Of a stretch of DNA of 64,000 nt, positions 9,878 through 60,429 are shown one piece after another. The notes below the pieces were generated by a model. It worked only from the letters and a program-made list of their open reading frames with translations. It did no database searches and was not told the DNA's origin. Made by a program: the position numbers and the translations under genes. How positions within the stretch are numbered: position 1 is the stretch's first letter; each line of letters begins with the position of its first letter. The stretch spans positions 1,054,001 to 1,118,000 of the forward strand of contig NC_014933.1 of NCBI RefSeq assembly GCF_000186225.1. The letters are read 5' to 3'. This stretch comes from Bacteroides helcogenes P 36-108 (lineage in GTDB: Bacteria; Bacteroidota; Bacteroidia; Bacteroidales; Bacteroidaceae).

Positions 9878-10061
9878 GTTCAGTTCTTTTTAGTATCACT
9901 GCAAAAGTACGGCAATTATGGTATAAGGTTGTTATACAGATTACTGATTATTCAACCCTTTTTACTGGCTACATCTCTTTTGTTTTGATTCACAGTGTCT
10001 TATTTTACCAATAGCTTGATGGTATGCAAGATTAAGATAGGAACTTTTTTCATTGTTGGAC

Positions 10062-10130
10062 ATAAAAAAAGGAGTACCGCTGTACTCCAACCTTTGTTAA
10101 CCTTAAATCTAATACTATGAAAAAAATCAC
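10062..10130 (-). ncRNA. Candidate minus-strand small RNA with own promoter and terminator
   Basis: The stretch 9878-10444 has no convincing gene. On the minus strand it holds a compact transcription unit. A near-perfect Bacteroides promoter (TTTG at 10166-10163, 20-base spacer, TACATTTG at 10142-10135) is followed within 75 bases by a hairpin, GGAGTAC/GTACTCC (10088-10071), and a run of seven T (10070-10064). The predicted transcript is about 65-70 nucleotides with an unstructured 5' half. On the opposite strand a 22-codon frame (10118-10192, MKKIT...) overlaps it. I do not recognise an Rfam family with certainty. Confidence 0.45.
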
Positions 10131-46340: not shown

Positions 46341-46386
46341 TTTGTGGACCAGCCTGGGCTTGAACCAGGGACCTCCAGATTATGAG
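46341..46386 (-). other. Island end (att repeat): displaced 3' half of tRNA-Met
   Basis: These 46 bases match 60384-60429 exactly. They hold the T arm, acceptor 3' strand and anticodon-loop edge of the tRNA on the minus strand but no 5' half, so this is the chromosomal 3' end displaced by integration. Confidence 0.9.
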
Positions 46387-47849: not shown

Positions 47850-48425
47850 TTAAAATTCATCATTGTTTGTGGTTGCAGTTCTATATGTAACTGTCAATAT
47901 ACCGTCAAAATGTACTCCCAGTTCATCTTGTGAATTATTAAGGGTGACATTTAGAGTTATAGAATTAGAATTTGTATCTCTCCATATTGCATTACCTTCA
48001 GAAGAAACTGCTGGATTACCATATTTAGAACAAAATGCATTACCCAAACTATTAAATGTTTGTGTGAACCTATTTGCAATCTGATTCTGCTTTGATTTGG
48101 CTTCGTTAAGTAAAGTTGCTCTATCCTTAAAAGGGTTGTCAGCTACAGATACAAAATCAGAGAGTGTAAATTTTGCTTCCACAAGCTTTTCATTTTTAAA
48201 GGTTATAGTCAAATTGTCAAATCTTGTATCAATAAATGTGACATTATCCAAATGAATGCAAGGAAATTTCCATTCTACATTAGAGTATCTTTTTTTTAAC
48301 TTATCTATGGCTACATAAGGCTTGTCTTCCAATTTAATTCCTAAGAAGCCTGTAATTTCATTTTGAGCATTGATATAAGTGGTTATAAACAGCATTGATA
48401 AGAACAGTAATAATCTGTGCTTCAT
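47850..48425 (-). CDS. Exported protein of unknown function
   Basis: A 191-residue exported protein with a clear signal peptide (MKHRLLLFLSMLFITTYINAQ). The mature part starts ITGFLGIKLEDKPYVAIDKLKKRY, an arrangement seen in small Bacteroides periplasmic proteins, and has a beta-rich C-terminus (GILTVTYRTAT). I do not recognise the family. It is the first gene of a two-gene operon with the lipoprotein; upstream lies the long structured leader at 48471-48742. Confidence 0.6.
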   Translation of the reverse strand: MKHRLLLFLSMLFITTYINAQNEITGFLGIKLEDKPYVAIDKLKKRYSNVEWKFPCIHLDNVTFIDTRFDNLTITFKNEKLVEAKFTLSDFVSVADNPFKDRATLLNEAKSKQNQIANRFTQTFNSLGNAFCSKYGNPAVSSEGNAIWRDTNSNSITLNVTLNNSQDELGVHFDGILTVTYRTATTNNDEF

Positions 48426-48470: not shown

Positions 48471-48742
48471 AAAAAAGGTGTGGAAGCTATATTTGTTCTA
48501 TCCTACATTCAGGTCTTCGCATTACCTTTGGCACGGATAAAACAATAGCCCCACACCAAAGGGTATATAGTTCACCTAAGCGATGAATATATATCAAATG
48601 TGTGGGTGCTATTGCTATCATCTTCGTGCCAATATCAAAGTTGCGAAGTTTGAATGTAGAAGATAATTTCAATAACACCTTTCGTTAAATATGTCCTTCC
48701 AACTCCCTATCTCATTAGTTCGTTGGAATTGGTGCAAAGGTA
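48471..48742 (-). ncRNA. Candidate structured leader or non-coding RNA with switch-like pairing
   Basis: On the minus strand a -7 box TACCTTTG (48742-48735) is followed by a TTCCAAC/GTTGGAA hairpin. Then comes a very long imperfect inverted repeat with arms 48496-48578 and 48585-48662, matching blocks CTACATTCA, CTTCGCA, TTGGCACG, AATAGC and CCACAC in order. The strand GGTGTGGGGCTAT (48557-48545) can pair inside this stem or with ATAGCTTCCACACC (48490-48477), which is directly followed by six T. That is the layout of a terminator/antiterminator switch ahead of the operon at 48425-46621, or of a terminated structured RNA of about 260 nucleotides. A 63-codon frame runs through it, but its sequence looks like a by-product of the repeat. 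Confidence 0.5.
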
Positions 48743-49163: not shown

Positions 49164-49751
49164 TTAGAAGCTCAAACAGTCATAAGTCTGTAGAATCTCT
49201 TCCTGCCTTAATCCCAAGTATCTTTTAGTAATGGCAACAGAACTATGGTTGAACAGTTCCATCAGCTTTACTAAAGCAAGTTCAGCATTATCACTGTTCA
49301 TGTTATAGACCTGTCTGCCAAATGTCTTTCTAAGAGAATGGCAGCTAAAGTTCTTAATCTTTAACCTGTACTTCTTCTTCACCTCTTTAAGAATGATATT
49401 AATTCTCTGAACTGTGAAGATAGTGCCTTTCTGACTTATAAGAATTGGTGCATTGATTCCAACTGGATTTATATGCTCGTAGCACTCTTTAATATGATGT
49501 TGTAATTGTGGGTTTAGTCTGATAGTTCTTACCTTGCCTGTCTTTTGCTCAATTACTGTAAACTCGTCAGTACCTAATATCTGCTTCCACCTTAGAGATA
49601 GAATATCAGATATTCTTAATCCTGTGAAGCATCCCAAAGCTATAAGAAGAGAGATTTTATAATTCTCGTCTTTCGTCAACTTCCTTATGAGGTTCATAGC
49701 GTCAGACCAAACAAGATAGTCCGCTGTTGTCGTTGAATATTTGAGTGACAT
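49164..49751 (-). CDS. Small tyrosine recombinase (catalytic domain only)
   Basis: A 195-residue tyrosine recombinase consisting essentially of the catalytic domain. Active-site residues are visible: Arg in CFTGLRISDILSLRW, Lys in the beta-hairpin EQKTGKVRTIRL, His-x-x-Arg in CHSLRKTFGRQV, His in FNHSSVAITKRYLG, with Tyr as nucleophile in the same block. The N-terminal core-binding domain of phage integrases is absent. This size is seen in DNA invertases of the FimB/FimE kind and in small recombinases of Bacteroides islands. Its substrate is unknown. It is divergent from the restriction endonuclease gene (87-base gap). Confidence 0.85.
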   Translation of the reverse strand: MSLKYSTTTADYLVWSDAMNLIRKLTKDENYKISLLIALGCFTGLRISDILSLRWKQILGTDEFTVIEQKTGKVRTIRLNPQLQHHIKECYEHINPVGINAPILISQKGTIFTVQRINIILKEVKKKYRLKIKNFSCHSLRKTFGRQVYNMNSDNAELALVKLMELFNHSSVAITKRYLGLRQEEILQTYDCLSF

Positions 49752-49838: not shown

Positions 49839-50429
49839 ATGAGTTCACCTTATAACGGATTAAATGTAGAAGATTGGAAGAGTAAAACGGAGGAATTAAT
49901 TAAGGCACATCCTCTTAAAGAAAAAATCGTACCTATCGTTCTTAAGGCATGGGATGATATTTTTAATTCTCAAATGGGGTCTTTCAAAATAGGAAAAGAC
50001 ATTTTCCCTTCTCCACAAATAATGAGCTTTTTTCTTCATGAATTAGTTGCACACTATTTATCTCTTGAATATCCTAAAGAGTATAAAGTTGGGGAAGCAA
50101 AAAAAGAAAAGGATGTACATAATATTATTAATCCTCAAATGGGAATTGAAATTAAAGCATCTTCACATCCTACGCAAATTTTTGCTAATCGGAGTTACGC
50201 ACAACCGTCATCTTCTTCTGAAGAGAAAGATAAAAATGGATATTATATTGGAATTAACTTTGAGAAGTTCTCAGAGTCTAATCCCAAGCCCCAAATATTA
50301 CAGATAAGATTTGGATATTTGGAGCACAGTGATTGGATTGCCCAAAAAGCAGCTACTGGACAACAAGCAAGATTATCAACTAATGCAGATAAGAATAAAT
50401 TAATTACTATATATAAAAAATGCGATTAA
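49839..50429 (+). CDS. Type II restriction endonuclease, ScaI-like
   Basis: A 196-residue nuclease. The PD-(D/E)xK-like core is suggested by NPQMGIEIKASSHPT (E-x-K, about residues 103-113) followed by IFANRSYAQPSSS and YYIGINFEKF. The segment IRFGYLEHSDWIAQKAATGQ then QARLS is what I remember as the mark of the ScaI family, whose members cut AGTACT. The gene is convergent with a methylase of the matching kind and overlaps its last 4 bases, which supports a restriction-modification pair. The exact recognition site is inferred from the family only. Confidence 0.75.
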   Translation: MSSPYNGLNVEDWKSKTEELIKAHPLKEKIVPIVLKAWDDIFNSQMGSFKIGKDIFPSPQIMSFFLHELVAHYLSLEYPKEYKVGEAKKEKDVHNIINPQMGIEIKASSHPTQIFANRSYAQPSSSSEEKDKNGYYIGINFEKFSESNPKPQILQIRFGYLEHSDWIAQKAATGQQARLSTNADKNKLITIYKKCD

Positions 50430-50448
50430 AATAATCGCATTTTTTTTT
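50414..50448. terminator. Bidirectional terminator overlapping both stop codons of the R-M pair
   Basis: ATGCGATT/AATCGCAT (50420-50427 and 50433-50440) forms an eight-base-pair stem with A-run before and T-run after (50441-50448), so it works in both directions. It contains the stop codons of both convergent genes. Confidence 0.8.
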
Positions 50449-51259
50449 CATCATATTTTGTTTGTATCCTTTTTGGGGCTATTTCACAATAGTCAGAATT
50501 TATCTCAAAACCGATAAATTTTCGTCCTAATTCTATAGCAACAGCTCCAACAGTGCCAGACCCCATAAATGGGTCTAATATTATATCATTCTTATTAGTA
50601 AAACCTAAAATTAATCTTTTAATTAAATCCTCTGGGAACTGGGCTGGATGAGCAGTTCTTTCTTCGGAAGCTCTGTTTGTTCCTGAAGTAACTTTAGCTA
50701 TTTGCCAAACATCAGATGGATTTTTTCCAATAGAATTACATCTTAATTTTCCATTCTTCTTTTGATTAGGATATTTTACATCTGGGTCTCTAATTTCGTC
50801 TAAATTAAAAGTGTAATTTTTTTCATTTTTGATGTACCATAATATTTTCTCATTTCTTGGAGATAAAAAACGTTTAGCTGAAACTCCTGCCCCATAATTC
50901 CAAACGATTTCTTGTTGTAAAAAGAAAGGTATTTTATCCCATAATAAATAGGGTATAGGGACAGCCTTTCCTTTATTGGGGAAATTTAAATAACCGACAT
51001 TTAACAGAAAACTTCCTGTAGGTACAGTTAATTTATGAATTAATTTAATAATATCGGTAAGCCAGTCTATATAGTCACCGATAGGCATTACAGTTTCATA
51101 TTCTTTCCCAATGTTATAGGGAGGACTGGTTATTGTTGAATTAAAGCAGGTATCGTTTAATAGCTTTAATCCTTTTCTACAATCCATATTATAAAGTAAT
51201 CCGAACTCATTTTCATAATATGGACTACCTATTTTAGTTTTAATTTCTTCTATTCTCAT
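50426..51259 (-). CDS. Type II DNA methyltransferase (N4-cytosine/N6-adenine type)
   Basis: A 277-residue beta-class DNA methyltransferase. The catalytic motif IV is ITSPPYNIGKEYE (SPPY, which favours N4-cytosine methylation) near residue 43; the SAM-binding motif I is ILDPFMGSGTVGAVAIELG near residue 228. The order catalytic motif first, SAM motif last is the beta arrangement. The region between holds the target-recognition part. Paired with the ScaI-like nuclease, it would protect AGTACT by m4C, as M.ScaI does (inference). It ends in the shared bidirectional terminator. Confidence 0.85.
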   Translation of the reverse strand: MRIEEIKTKIGSPYYENEFGLLYNMDCRKGLKLLNDTCFNSTITSPPYNIGKEYETVMPIGDYIDWLTDIIKLIHKLTVPTGSFLLNVGYLNFPNKGKAVPIPYLLWDKIPFFLQQEIVWNYGAGVSAKRFLSPRNEKILWYIKNEKNYTFNLDEIRDPDVKYPNQKKNGKLRCNSIGKNPSDVWQIAKVTSGTNRASEERTAHPAQFPEDLIKRLILGFTNKNDIILDPFMGSGTVGAVAIELGRKFIGFEINSDYCEIAPKRIQTKYDEKKMRLF

Positions 51260-58977: not shown

Positions 58978-60246
58978 TTACTTACCAAACACGTATTTCA
59001 CAACCTTGGTATTAGCCTTGTTTTCATTTACGAAGTCGCGTTCAATATAAATGTCTGTCACCTTCATAGAGTCATCAATATGGTTGAGGGCTGCATGGAC
59101 TGTATATTTGTCTATGCCTACTTTGTTGAGAGCGATAGTAGCCCAACTATGCCTTGCTGCATAGTACTCCAAATCATCTACTTCTAATATTGAACCAATC
59201 TCTTTCAATCCAGAATTGATAGCCTTGTTAAAAGTCTTTTCATCCCCATAGAATTGATGGAAGTTAAACAGACGTTTGCCTGTGCTATCTTTGTACTTAT
59301 CAATAAGAGGTTGCACTATCTTAGGAATATCTACCATCATTTTTGCACCATCCAATCTGCGAGCTTTGGTCTTAGTTCTGTTATAGATAATAGTGTTCCC
59401 TCTCATTTCAGTAGCATTGTAAAGGTCTGCTGAATTGATTCCCATAAGGCAGAATGAGAGAATGAAACAATCTTTAGCCAAGTTATAACGGCAGGTGGAC
59501 TTATATCCTTTCTTCATGTCTTTATAAGGCAGCTTCCACACCTTTTTAATGATGTCTGCTGGAATGGCTCTCTTACGTGTAGCTTCCTGTTTAGGTATCT
59601 TGAAGTCTTCAAAGGGTGAGTTAGGAATAAGAATAAGGTTCTTGTCCTTCTTATTGAACTTACGTTTGGCTTCATTGAACAGCTTCTTGATGCTTACCAA
59701 GTAGAGGGAAAGAGTGCGGTTAGAGGTCACACGTTTACCTTGCTGCATCAGTTTCTTGGTACGTGCATCACGTTCTCCAATTAAAAATGCTTTGAACTGT
59801 TCCAAGAAGTCTAAGGTGATAAGATTTATATCCAATTCCTCTTTACCAACAAACCGTACCAAAGCATTGATGGCAGTTGTATAATTGGGTGCTCCTTTTA
59901 TGGTAGTAGAAGCTATCCACTCACGACTGAACTTTATAAAGTCAATGGTTTGTTGCTTCTCTTGCTCTCCGTTTAGGAACTCAATTATCTCATCCAATGA
60001 ATAATGATTTTGGTCTAATTGCAGTTTTAAACACTGTTCCCTATAATAGAGAACAAGCCTATCTATCTCTCTCTTAATGGAAGTGTCCTCTTTGAATTTG
60101 AGGGATTTAGTTAGGTCTTGTTGAGTTACAAACAGGTTGGTGGATAAGCGTTTTACCTTGCGGTCTAATGTGAATCTAATCTTGACGTTATAAGTTCCGT
60201 CAACTTTTAGTTCACTCCTTTTAATCTCAGCTTTAATAGTCAGCAT
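58978..60246 (-). CDS. int: Island integrase, tyrosine recombinase of the Bacteroides type
   Basis: A 422-residue integrase for the island. N-terminal arm-binding domain (about 1-95), SAM-like core-binding domain (about 100-205; FIKFSREWIAS and LSLYLVSIKKLFNEA) and catalytic domain (about 225-415). Visible catalytic residues are YYAARHSWATIA, ALNHIDDSMKVTDIYIE with the nucleophile Tyr. The first arginine of the usual set is replaced in FCLMGINSADLYNA, as in a subgroup of Bacteroides integrases. The gene points away from the tRNA, starting 138 bases from the att repeat, with the arm-type repeat at 60265-60283 between. Confidence 0.92.
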   Translation of the reverse strand: MLTIKAEIKRSELKVDGTYNVKIRFTLDRKVKRLSTNLFVTQQDLTKSLKFKEDTSIKREIDRLVLYYREQCLKLQLDQNHYSLDEIIEFLNGEQEKQQTIDFIKFSREWIASTTIKGAPNYTTAINALVRFVGKEELDINLITLDFLEQFKAFLIGERDARTKKLMQQGKRVTSNRTLSLYLVSIKKLFNEAKRKFNKKDKNLILIPNSPFEDFKIPKQEATRKRAIPADIIKKVWKLPYKDMKKGYKSTCRYNLAKDCFILSFCLMGINSADLYNATEMRGNTIIYNRTKTKARRLDGAKMMVDIPKIVQPLIDKYKDSTGKRLFNFHQFYGDEKTFNKAINSGLKEIGSILEVDDLEYYAARHSWATIALNKVGIDKYTVHAALNHIDDSMKVTDIYIERDFVNENKANTKVVKYVFGK

Positions 60247-60383: not shown

Positions 60384-60429
60384 TTTGTGGACCAGCCTGG
60401 GCTTGAACCAGGGACCTCCAGATTATGAG
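60384..60429 (-). other. Island end (att repeat) inside tRNA-Met
   Basis: The 46 bases match 46341-46386 exactly. They form the 3' part of the intact tRNA gene up to the anticodon loop (ATTATGAG edge), so integration rebuilt the tRNA with island-borne sequence. Confidence 0.9.

Follow-up and report, generated by a model that had tools for sequence, protein, structure and literature searches.

Just upstream of a two-gene operon in Bacteroides helcogenes P 36-108, on the minus strand of the window (the whole 64,000-nucleotide stretch of DNA that we analyzed), lies what is very likely a leader RNA that attenuates transcription by switching between two states and that represents a new family in the Bacteroidales. 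This leader probably decides whether the downstream genes are switched on. As there are no transcript data, we infer rather than observe that transcription terminates in vivo, that the efficiency of termination is regulated, and that the two hairpins correspond to the off state and a long form to the on state. If this reading is correct, then one uncatalogued RNA switch is common to at least a dozen genes in a single gut Bacteroides, and the genes under its control would be those for surface proteins, secreted proteins, small regulators, and the cargo of mobile islands. We know of few cis-acting RNA regulators in Bacteroides. The leader would also be a test bed for co-transcriptional strand exchange, with two independently covarying folds and many natural toehold variants, and it would give a handle on the switching of variable surface genes and of horizontally acquired cargo in the gut.

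Anatomy and folding of the leader

We established the anatomy of the locus as follows:

48742-48735, minus strand: promoter -7 box TACCTTTG, of the Bacteroides type TAnnTTTG (from the sequence)
48729-48697, minus strand: leading hairpin P0, at the transcript start (from the fold; its sequence differs among homologs)
48679-48605, minus strand: hairpin A as a whole (from the fold and pair counts)
48679-48670 with 48614-48605, minus strand: helix P1 of hairpin A
48667-48659 with 48625-48617, minus strand: helix P2 of hairpin A
48653-48649 with 48639-48635, minus strand: helix P3 of hairpin A
48648-48640, minus strand: loop A, which pairs with loop B (48523-48515) in the long form
48659-48652, minus strand: private strand S1, with its partner S1' (48510-48503) in the long form only (from the top unsupervised covariation and the partner swap)
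48632-48626, minus strand: private strand S2, the toehold, with its partner S2' (48534-48528) in the long form only (from the top unsupervised covariation and the partner swap)
48595-48564, minus strand: variable apical hairpin that separates A and B (from the fold)
48557-48477, minus strand: hairpin B, the terminator stem (from the fold and pair counts)
48557-48549 region with 48486-48477, minus strand: base helix of hairpin B
48543-48535 with 48503-48495, minus strand: helix P5 of hairpin B
48527-48524 with 48514-48511, minus strand: helix P6 of hairpin B
48523-48515, minus strand: loop B
48557-48543, minus strand: switching strand B5', whose partner is 48490-48477 in the terminator and 48614-48600 in the antiterminator
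48476-48471, minus strand: U6 tract, the predicted termination site (from the sequence)
48454-48448, minus strand: post-terminator strand AGGAAGC (P7), which could pair with the 3' strand of the terminator (GCTTCC) after read-through (weak)
48425-47850, minus strand: first gene of the operon, for a 191-aa predicted secreted protein with no Pfam family
47829-46621, minus strand: second gene, for a predicted lipoprotein of 402 aa whose C-terminus is weakly lipocalin-like/DUF5640 (below curated cut-offs)

A preliminary description of this DNA had proposed a promoter box, a small hairpin, two arms that match in ordered blocks, and an alternative pairing that is followed by six T. The box and the hairpin are where it had placed them, and the blocks and the alternative pairing held up when checked letter by letter. 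Specifically, CAATAGC (48614-48608) and CCCACAC (48606-48600) match GTGTGGGGCTATTG (48556-48543), while GGTGTGGGGCTAT (48557-48545) has an alternative partner in ATAGCTTCCACACC (48490-48477), directly before TTTTTT (48476-48471). The description also had two secreted proteins of unknown function follow. The first gene starts about 45-50 nt past U6. By eye, the 191-aa protein (47850-48425) resembles the product of the gene behind L266, a very diverged leader in genome G013 (ITGFLGIKLEDK / VTTFLGIPVDGTK), and it is possible that this protein is a recurring partner of the leader.

Hairpin B is almost a copy of hairpin A, so their strands are able to swap. The preliminary description had overlooked this resemblance, and also that the element belongs to a large family with many copies. 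In the long form, A3' pairs with B5' and is joined by S1:S1', the loop:loop pairing, and S2:S2', which gives a single hairpin (an inverted repeat) with the terminator dismantled. S1 overlaps the helices of hairpin A, with its first base in P2 and its last base in P3. The basal helix of the long form (AAGGUG:CACCUU) likewise adjoins the U tract, and this form might terminate too. The statistics for P7 are weak (mean z of -1.4 against shuffles and -0.4 in the partner swap), and a role for P7 after the terminator is suggestive only. We also considered an antisense promoter at the 3' end; TATATTTG on the opposite strand is suggestive, but it is not retained in many homologs, and we rejected this candidate.

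The earlier proposal of a long structured RNA was borne out by folding: the minus strand from 48742 to 48448 folds at -99.8 kcal/mol, versus -56.8 +/- 5.0 for shuffled sequences (z = -8.7; 0/200 dinucleotide shuffles were as good). In this minimum-energy fold of the full strand, promoter DNA pairs with the leader; the transcript from the likely start site (around 48729) folds at -93.5 kcal/mol. The terminated product is predicted to be about 258 nt long, with its 3' end at the U tract and with long double-stranded arms. The long form is more stable than the two hairpins by a median of 12.5 kcal/mol across 125 copies, and it is ahead by a median of 10.3 kcal/mol at a further 40 loci from the genus. 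In minimum-free-energy folds of growing transcripts, the A3':A5' pairing is held until B5' emerges in 119 of the 125 copies, and A3':B5' is favored once S2' has emerged in 124 of them. These calculations leave out tertiary structure, kinetics, and the polymerase, but they do demonstrate the greater calculated stability of the long fold and the point in the transcript where it becomes favored.

Conservation and covariation of both folds

The preliminary description had named covarying pairs in the arms as support for its reading, and our alignments of homologs demonstrate compensatory changes in both folds. In alignment A4 (80 copies, aligned by MAFFT), the two-hairpin fold has 94.3% of cells paired and both-side changes in 27 of its 42 pairs, and 0/500 shuffles were as good. 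The terminator stem alone is 100% paired, with both-side changes in 4/7 pairs. In the same alignment, the long fold is 81.9% paired and has both-side changes in 29 of 42 pairs (539 cells with both-side changes, versus 161 in shuffles). If either structure is slid by 1-3 columns, then pairing falls to 38.8-50.3%. MAFFT puts some columns wrong between loop types, and the pair counts are inflated by related sequences.

We also ranked covarying columns in 125 copies without assuming any structure. The top seven APC-corrected pairs are all standard base pairs within S1:S1' or S2:S2', which are present solely in the long fold. These two helices account for 9 of the 11 strongest pairs, and the remainder are a loop:loop column pair and its neighbor. 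(The ranking excepts shared-column signals, and the effective number of sequences is around 32.) The S1 helix is found in 116/121 copies and the S2 helix in 117/121, but when partners are exchanged between copies the pairing is lost, with only 16% for S1 and 34% for S2. In diverged copies, whole loops have been replaced and are still complementary, as in AUCGCCAA:UUGGCGAU and CUUCGAC:GUCGAAG, and other replaced sets are CCUAGGAAA:UUUCCUAGG and UCUGGACAA:UUGUCCAGA. Orthogonality of S1 and S2 among the copies within a genome is not supported: cross-pairing was 4.9% and 3.7% within genomes versus 3.9% and 9.0% between genomes (permutation fractions of 0.75 and 0.09, not significant).

Positions 10, 80, 132, and 208 (in the numbering of copy L001) switch between U-A and C-G in step, and all four alternative pairings are satisfied at 98-99%. 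This is the pattern that is expected if every strand serves two partners. Double pairing also explains why the sequence is conserved in strands that have two partners, whereas strands with one partner (S1, S2, and the loops) vary freely but jointly. The complementarity of A5' and B3' is a necessary consequence of the other three pairings. We considered whether the two sets of helices might coexist in an interlocked (paranemic) structure. This is not excluded, but P3 shares 1-3 nt with S1 and the loop pairing, which is more in keeping with folds that exclude each other. Given the covariation and the energies together, a terminator fold and a competing fold that share B5' and exclude each other are the better fit.

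Distribution and genomic context

BLASTN finds matches in 89 of 399 genomes from the family, although part of these are short, and judging from the sequences the element is conserved by descent. A covariance model for hairpin A (R1) gives matches in 21 of 393 genomes from the order, spread over about eleven families. A model for the whole RNA (R2) recovers six sense copies from the genome of the window, of which two are weak; among 41 relatives, 23 carry copies, with a maximum of 17 per genome. In a phylum-wide sample, searched with Infernal and stricter filters, matches occur in the Bacteroidales only. Plasmids gave a single match, in one Phocaeicola record, and no phage record matched the element. 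The E-values from the covariance models rest on short calibrations, and the script-derived sets of loci may hold a few false or truncated ones (L326 appears to be such a case).

The element has no match above the gathering cut-off for any family in Rfam 15, either in the window or in 32 homologous loci, which agrees with the preliminary description, where no known family was recognized. The sole Rfam matches were to rRNA, tRNA, and DUF805b, and to FopS elsewhere in the window (a FopS-family small RNA, RF04319, at 10061-10130 on the minus strand). A match to MIR821 was rejected: it is far below the cut-off and is a mere reflection of the long hairpin.

A TAnn(n)TTTG box is found upstream of 118 of 123 copies (29.8 expected by shuffling), mostly 82-104 nt ahead of loop A. 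In 59 of about 85 loci, by manual count, the first downstream frame begins 44-63 nt past the fixed point of the terminator. The leader is located, then, between a promoter motif and the first gene on the same strand, at a near-fixed spacing.

The genes downstream do not share a pathway. They encode BspA-type leucine-rich proteins (8/79), fimbrillin-like proteins, lipoproteins, small HTH proteins, and many proteins of unknown function. Some of them recur. Eight leaders (L300, L301, L302, L304, L310, L315, L323, and L324) precede paralogous proteins of around 145-165 aa that start like MPKWISVEEAAVKYGINKEVIWLW; paralogs of this type lie 140-148 nt downstream of the leaders, in two or three genomes, and the single one shown has no confident Pfam family. 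Behind L303, L312, L318, L327, and L328, the first gene encodes a 75-aa Cro/C1-type HTH protein (with Pfam HTH_26 in three members of the group), and lipoprotein genes are often next. In another genome, G1193, L305 and L308 lie ahead of near-identical 115-aa genes, and in L305 an rRNA operon is next on the same strand.

In the window, a 46-bp direct repeat of the 3' part of tRNA-Met (46341-46386 and 60384-60429) flanks a 14-kb integrated island that carries the leader and cargo, with integrases at 58978-60246 and 49164-49751. Also on the island is a complete-looking restriction-modification pair, in which a restriction endonuclease of the ScaI type (49839-50429; Pfam RE_ScaI, 6e-103) faces a DNA methylase (50426-51259). 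The element is not limited to mobile islands, as copies also precede chromosomal fimbrillin-type operons and, at L305, the 115-aa gene ahead of an rRNA operon.

Proposed mechanism, alternatives, and known systems

We propose that transcription would start just below the TAnnTTTG box and that hairpin A would form as it emerges, which would conceal the strand CAAUAGCACC. The emergence of B5' (GGUGUGGGGCUAUUG) would then open two outcomes. If hairpin A is kept, then B5' would pair with B3', and the terminator ahead of U6 would halt the polymerase after about 258 nt. Alternatively, B5' may invade hairpin A, initiated by the copy-specific toehold S2:S2' and by the loop:loop and S1:S1' contacts, in which case A and B would merge into the long hairpin, no terminator would form, and the polymerase would enter the operon. 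From the folds of growing transcripts and the stability of the long form, we infer a race, in which quick closure of hairpin B would lead to termination and invasion via S2, the loop, and S1 would lead to read-through. The balance might be tipped by the speed or pausing of the polymerase or by an RNA-binding or NusG-type protein, or there may be no signal and the decision may be stochastic. Each copy has toeholds of its own and we recognized no aptamer-like core, so a generic input or a stochastic decision seems likelier than a metabolite.

Could a protein read the leader in trans? A NusG paralog similar to UpxY or LoaP might bind the hairpins, or else an RNA-binding protein might, and this is a possibility that we would not dismiss, although we doubt it. 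A promoter-proximal leader ahead of diverse operons is generally known for LoaP or UpxY, and the conserved strands could serve as binding sites. But double pairing already accounts for their conservation, and no NusG-type domain was found among the top-ranked families of the downstream genes (the best 25 of 38-59, for neighbors of the loci only). Such a protein is in any case compatible with two-state attenuation, as the missing signal. A small-molecule aptamer within hairpin A or the long form that picks the fold, as in a ligand riboswitch, seems unlikely. The preliminary description had left the choice among an attenuator, a riboswitch, and a terminated RNA of about 260 nt; the attenuator is strongly supported, because both folds covary and because of the position between promoter and gene, but the ligand riboswitch is not, as we saw no conserved unpaired core. 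A platform of terminator and antiterminator is the usual one for riboswitches, and there are conserved internal-loop residues (AAA opposite GCC/ACC), but P3 and P6 account for the conserved AAA and GG/CC. Also, the loops and the inner helices S1 and S2 vary freely save for pairing, which is all that the variable parts retain in the homologs, and the downstream genes have no common pathway.

The predicted product of about 258 nt, with its long double-stranded arms and its end at a U tract, could be a small RNA or a source of double-stranded RNA that acts in trans, but we give this little credence: a pure small RNA would have no use for the antiterminator fold, which is kept, or for the near-fixed spacing to a gene on the same strand. 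That the element acts as DNA (a recombination or attachment site, or an inverted repeat) is very improbable. In its favor, a gene for a 195-aa integrase is nearby on the mobile island that carries the element, and the long form amounts to an inverted repeat. However, G-U cells outnumber A-C cells on the transcribed strand (292 versus 75, and 234 versus 116), which supports a function in the RNA of that strand rather than in DNA; furthermore, the promoter motif is attached in 118/123 copies, and copies before chromosomal fimbrillin-type operons have no recombinase in the stretch analyzed around them. We give least credit to a leader peptide gene, whether for translational attenuation or for a plain small protein. 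The window does contain a 63-codon open frame with a GTG start (48678-48487), and its conservation as protein without covarying pairs would have refuted the structured RNA. The outcome was the opposite. GTG is present in just 56 of 80 homologs (the other 24 have GCG, ACG, GCA, or CGT), the open stretch has a median length of 18 codons and reaches 60 codons or more in 14/80, and the changes track base pairing. We therefore rejected a protein-coding frame.

To return to two-state attenuation, we would suggest, only tentatively, a broader reading: a Bacteroidales-wide class of leaders in which two tandem hairpins, almost identical to each other, race to fold and thereby determine the output, with copy-specific toeholds to start the race and no dedicated ligand. 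Such a leader may be a built-in timer or stochastic switch that diversifies the cells of one population in their surface, secreted, and regulator proteins.

Among known systems, the antitermination leaders of UpxY and LoaP are also promoter-proximal RNAs ahead of operons of surface or variable genes. In contrast to these, the Bacteroidales leader has its terminator and antiterminator built in, and no NusG paralog was seen at the locus. In strand-exchange riboswitches such as the yxjA purine riboswitch (PMC9756952), co-transcriptional strand invasion likewise picks the terminator or the antiterminator, but in our leader no conserved aptamer core was seen, the genes are unrelated, and each copy has its own toeholds. 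Palindromic candidate RNAs from Bacteroidetes (HMP_4078, HMP2_1065, and HMP2_1032) were reported by Fremin and Bhatt (2021; PMC8040213). In the portion of their report available to us, these are 80-132 bp and are described as terminators or REP-like, some have predicted terminators, and one is near phage integrases. No two-state leader is described for them in that portion, and they may include fragments of our element. Nor is such a leader described in the available parts of PMC7366714, PMC10994844, PMC8040213, PMC2864571, or the literature that we searched (supplements excluded).

Attenuators of the trp type (1:2, 2:3, and 3:4) share with our leader the four strands, a first hairpin, an antiterminator 2:3, and a terminator 3:4 before a U tract. 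Unlike those attenuators, the leader has no conserved leader peptide, and its hairpin 3:4 nearly repeats its hairpin 1:2. It also has the additional private pairings (S1, S2, and loop:loop) that join 1:4 and 2:3 into one long hairpin.
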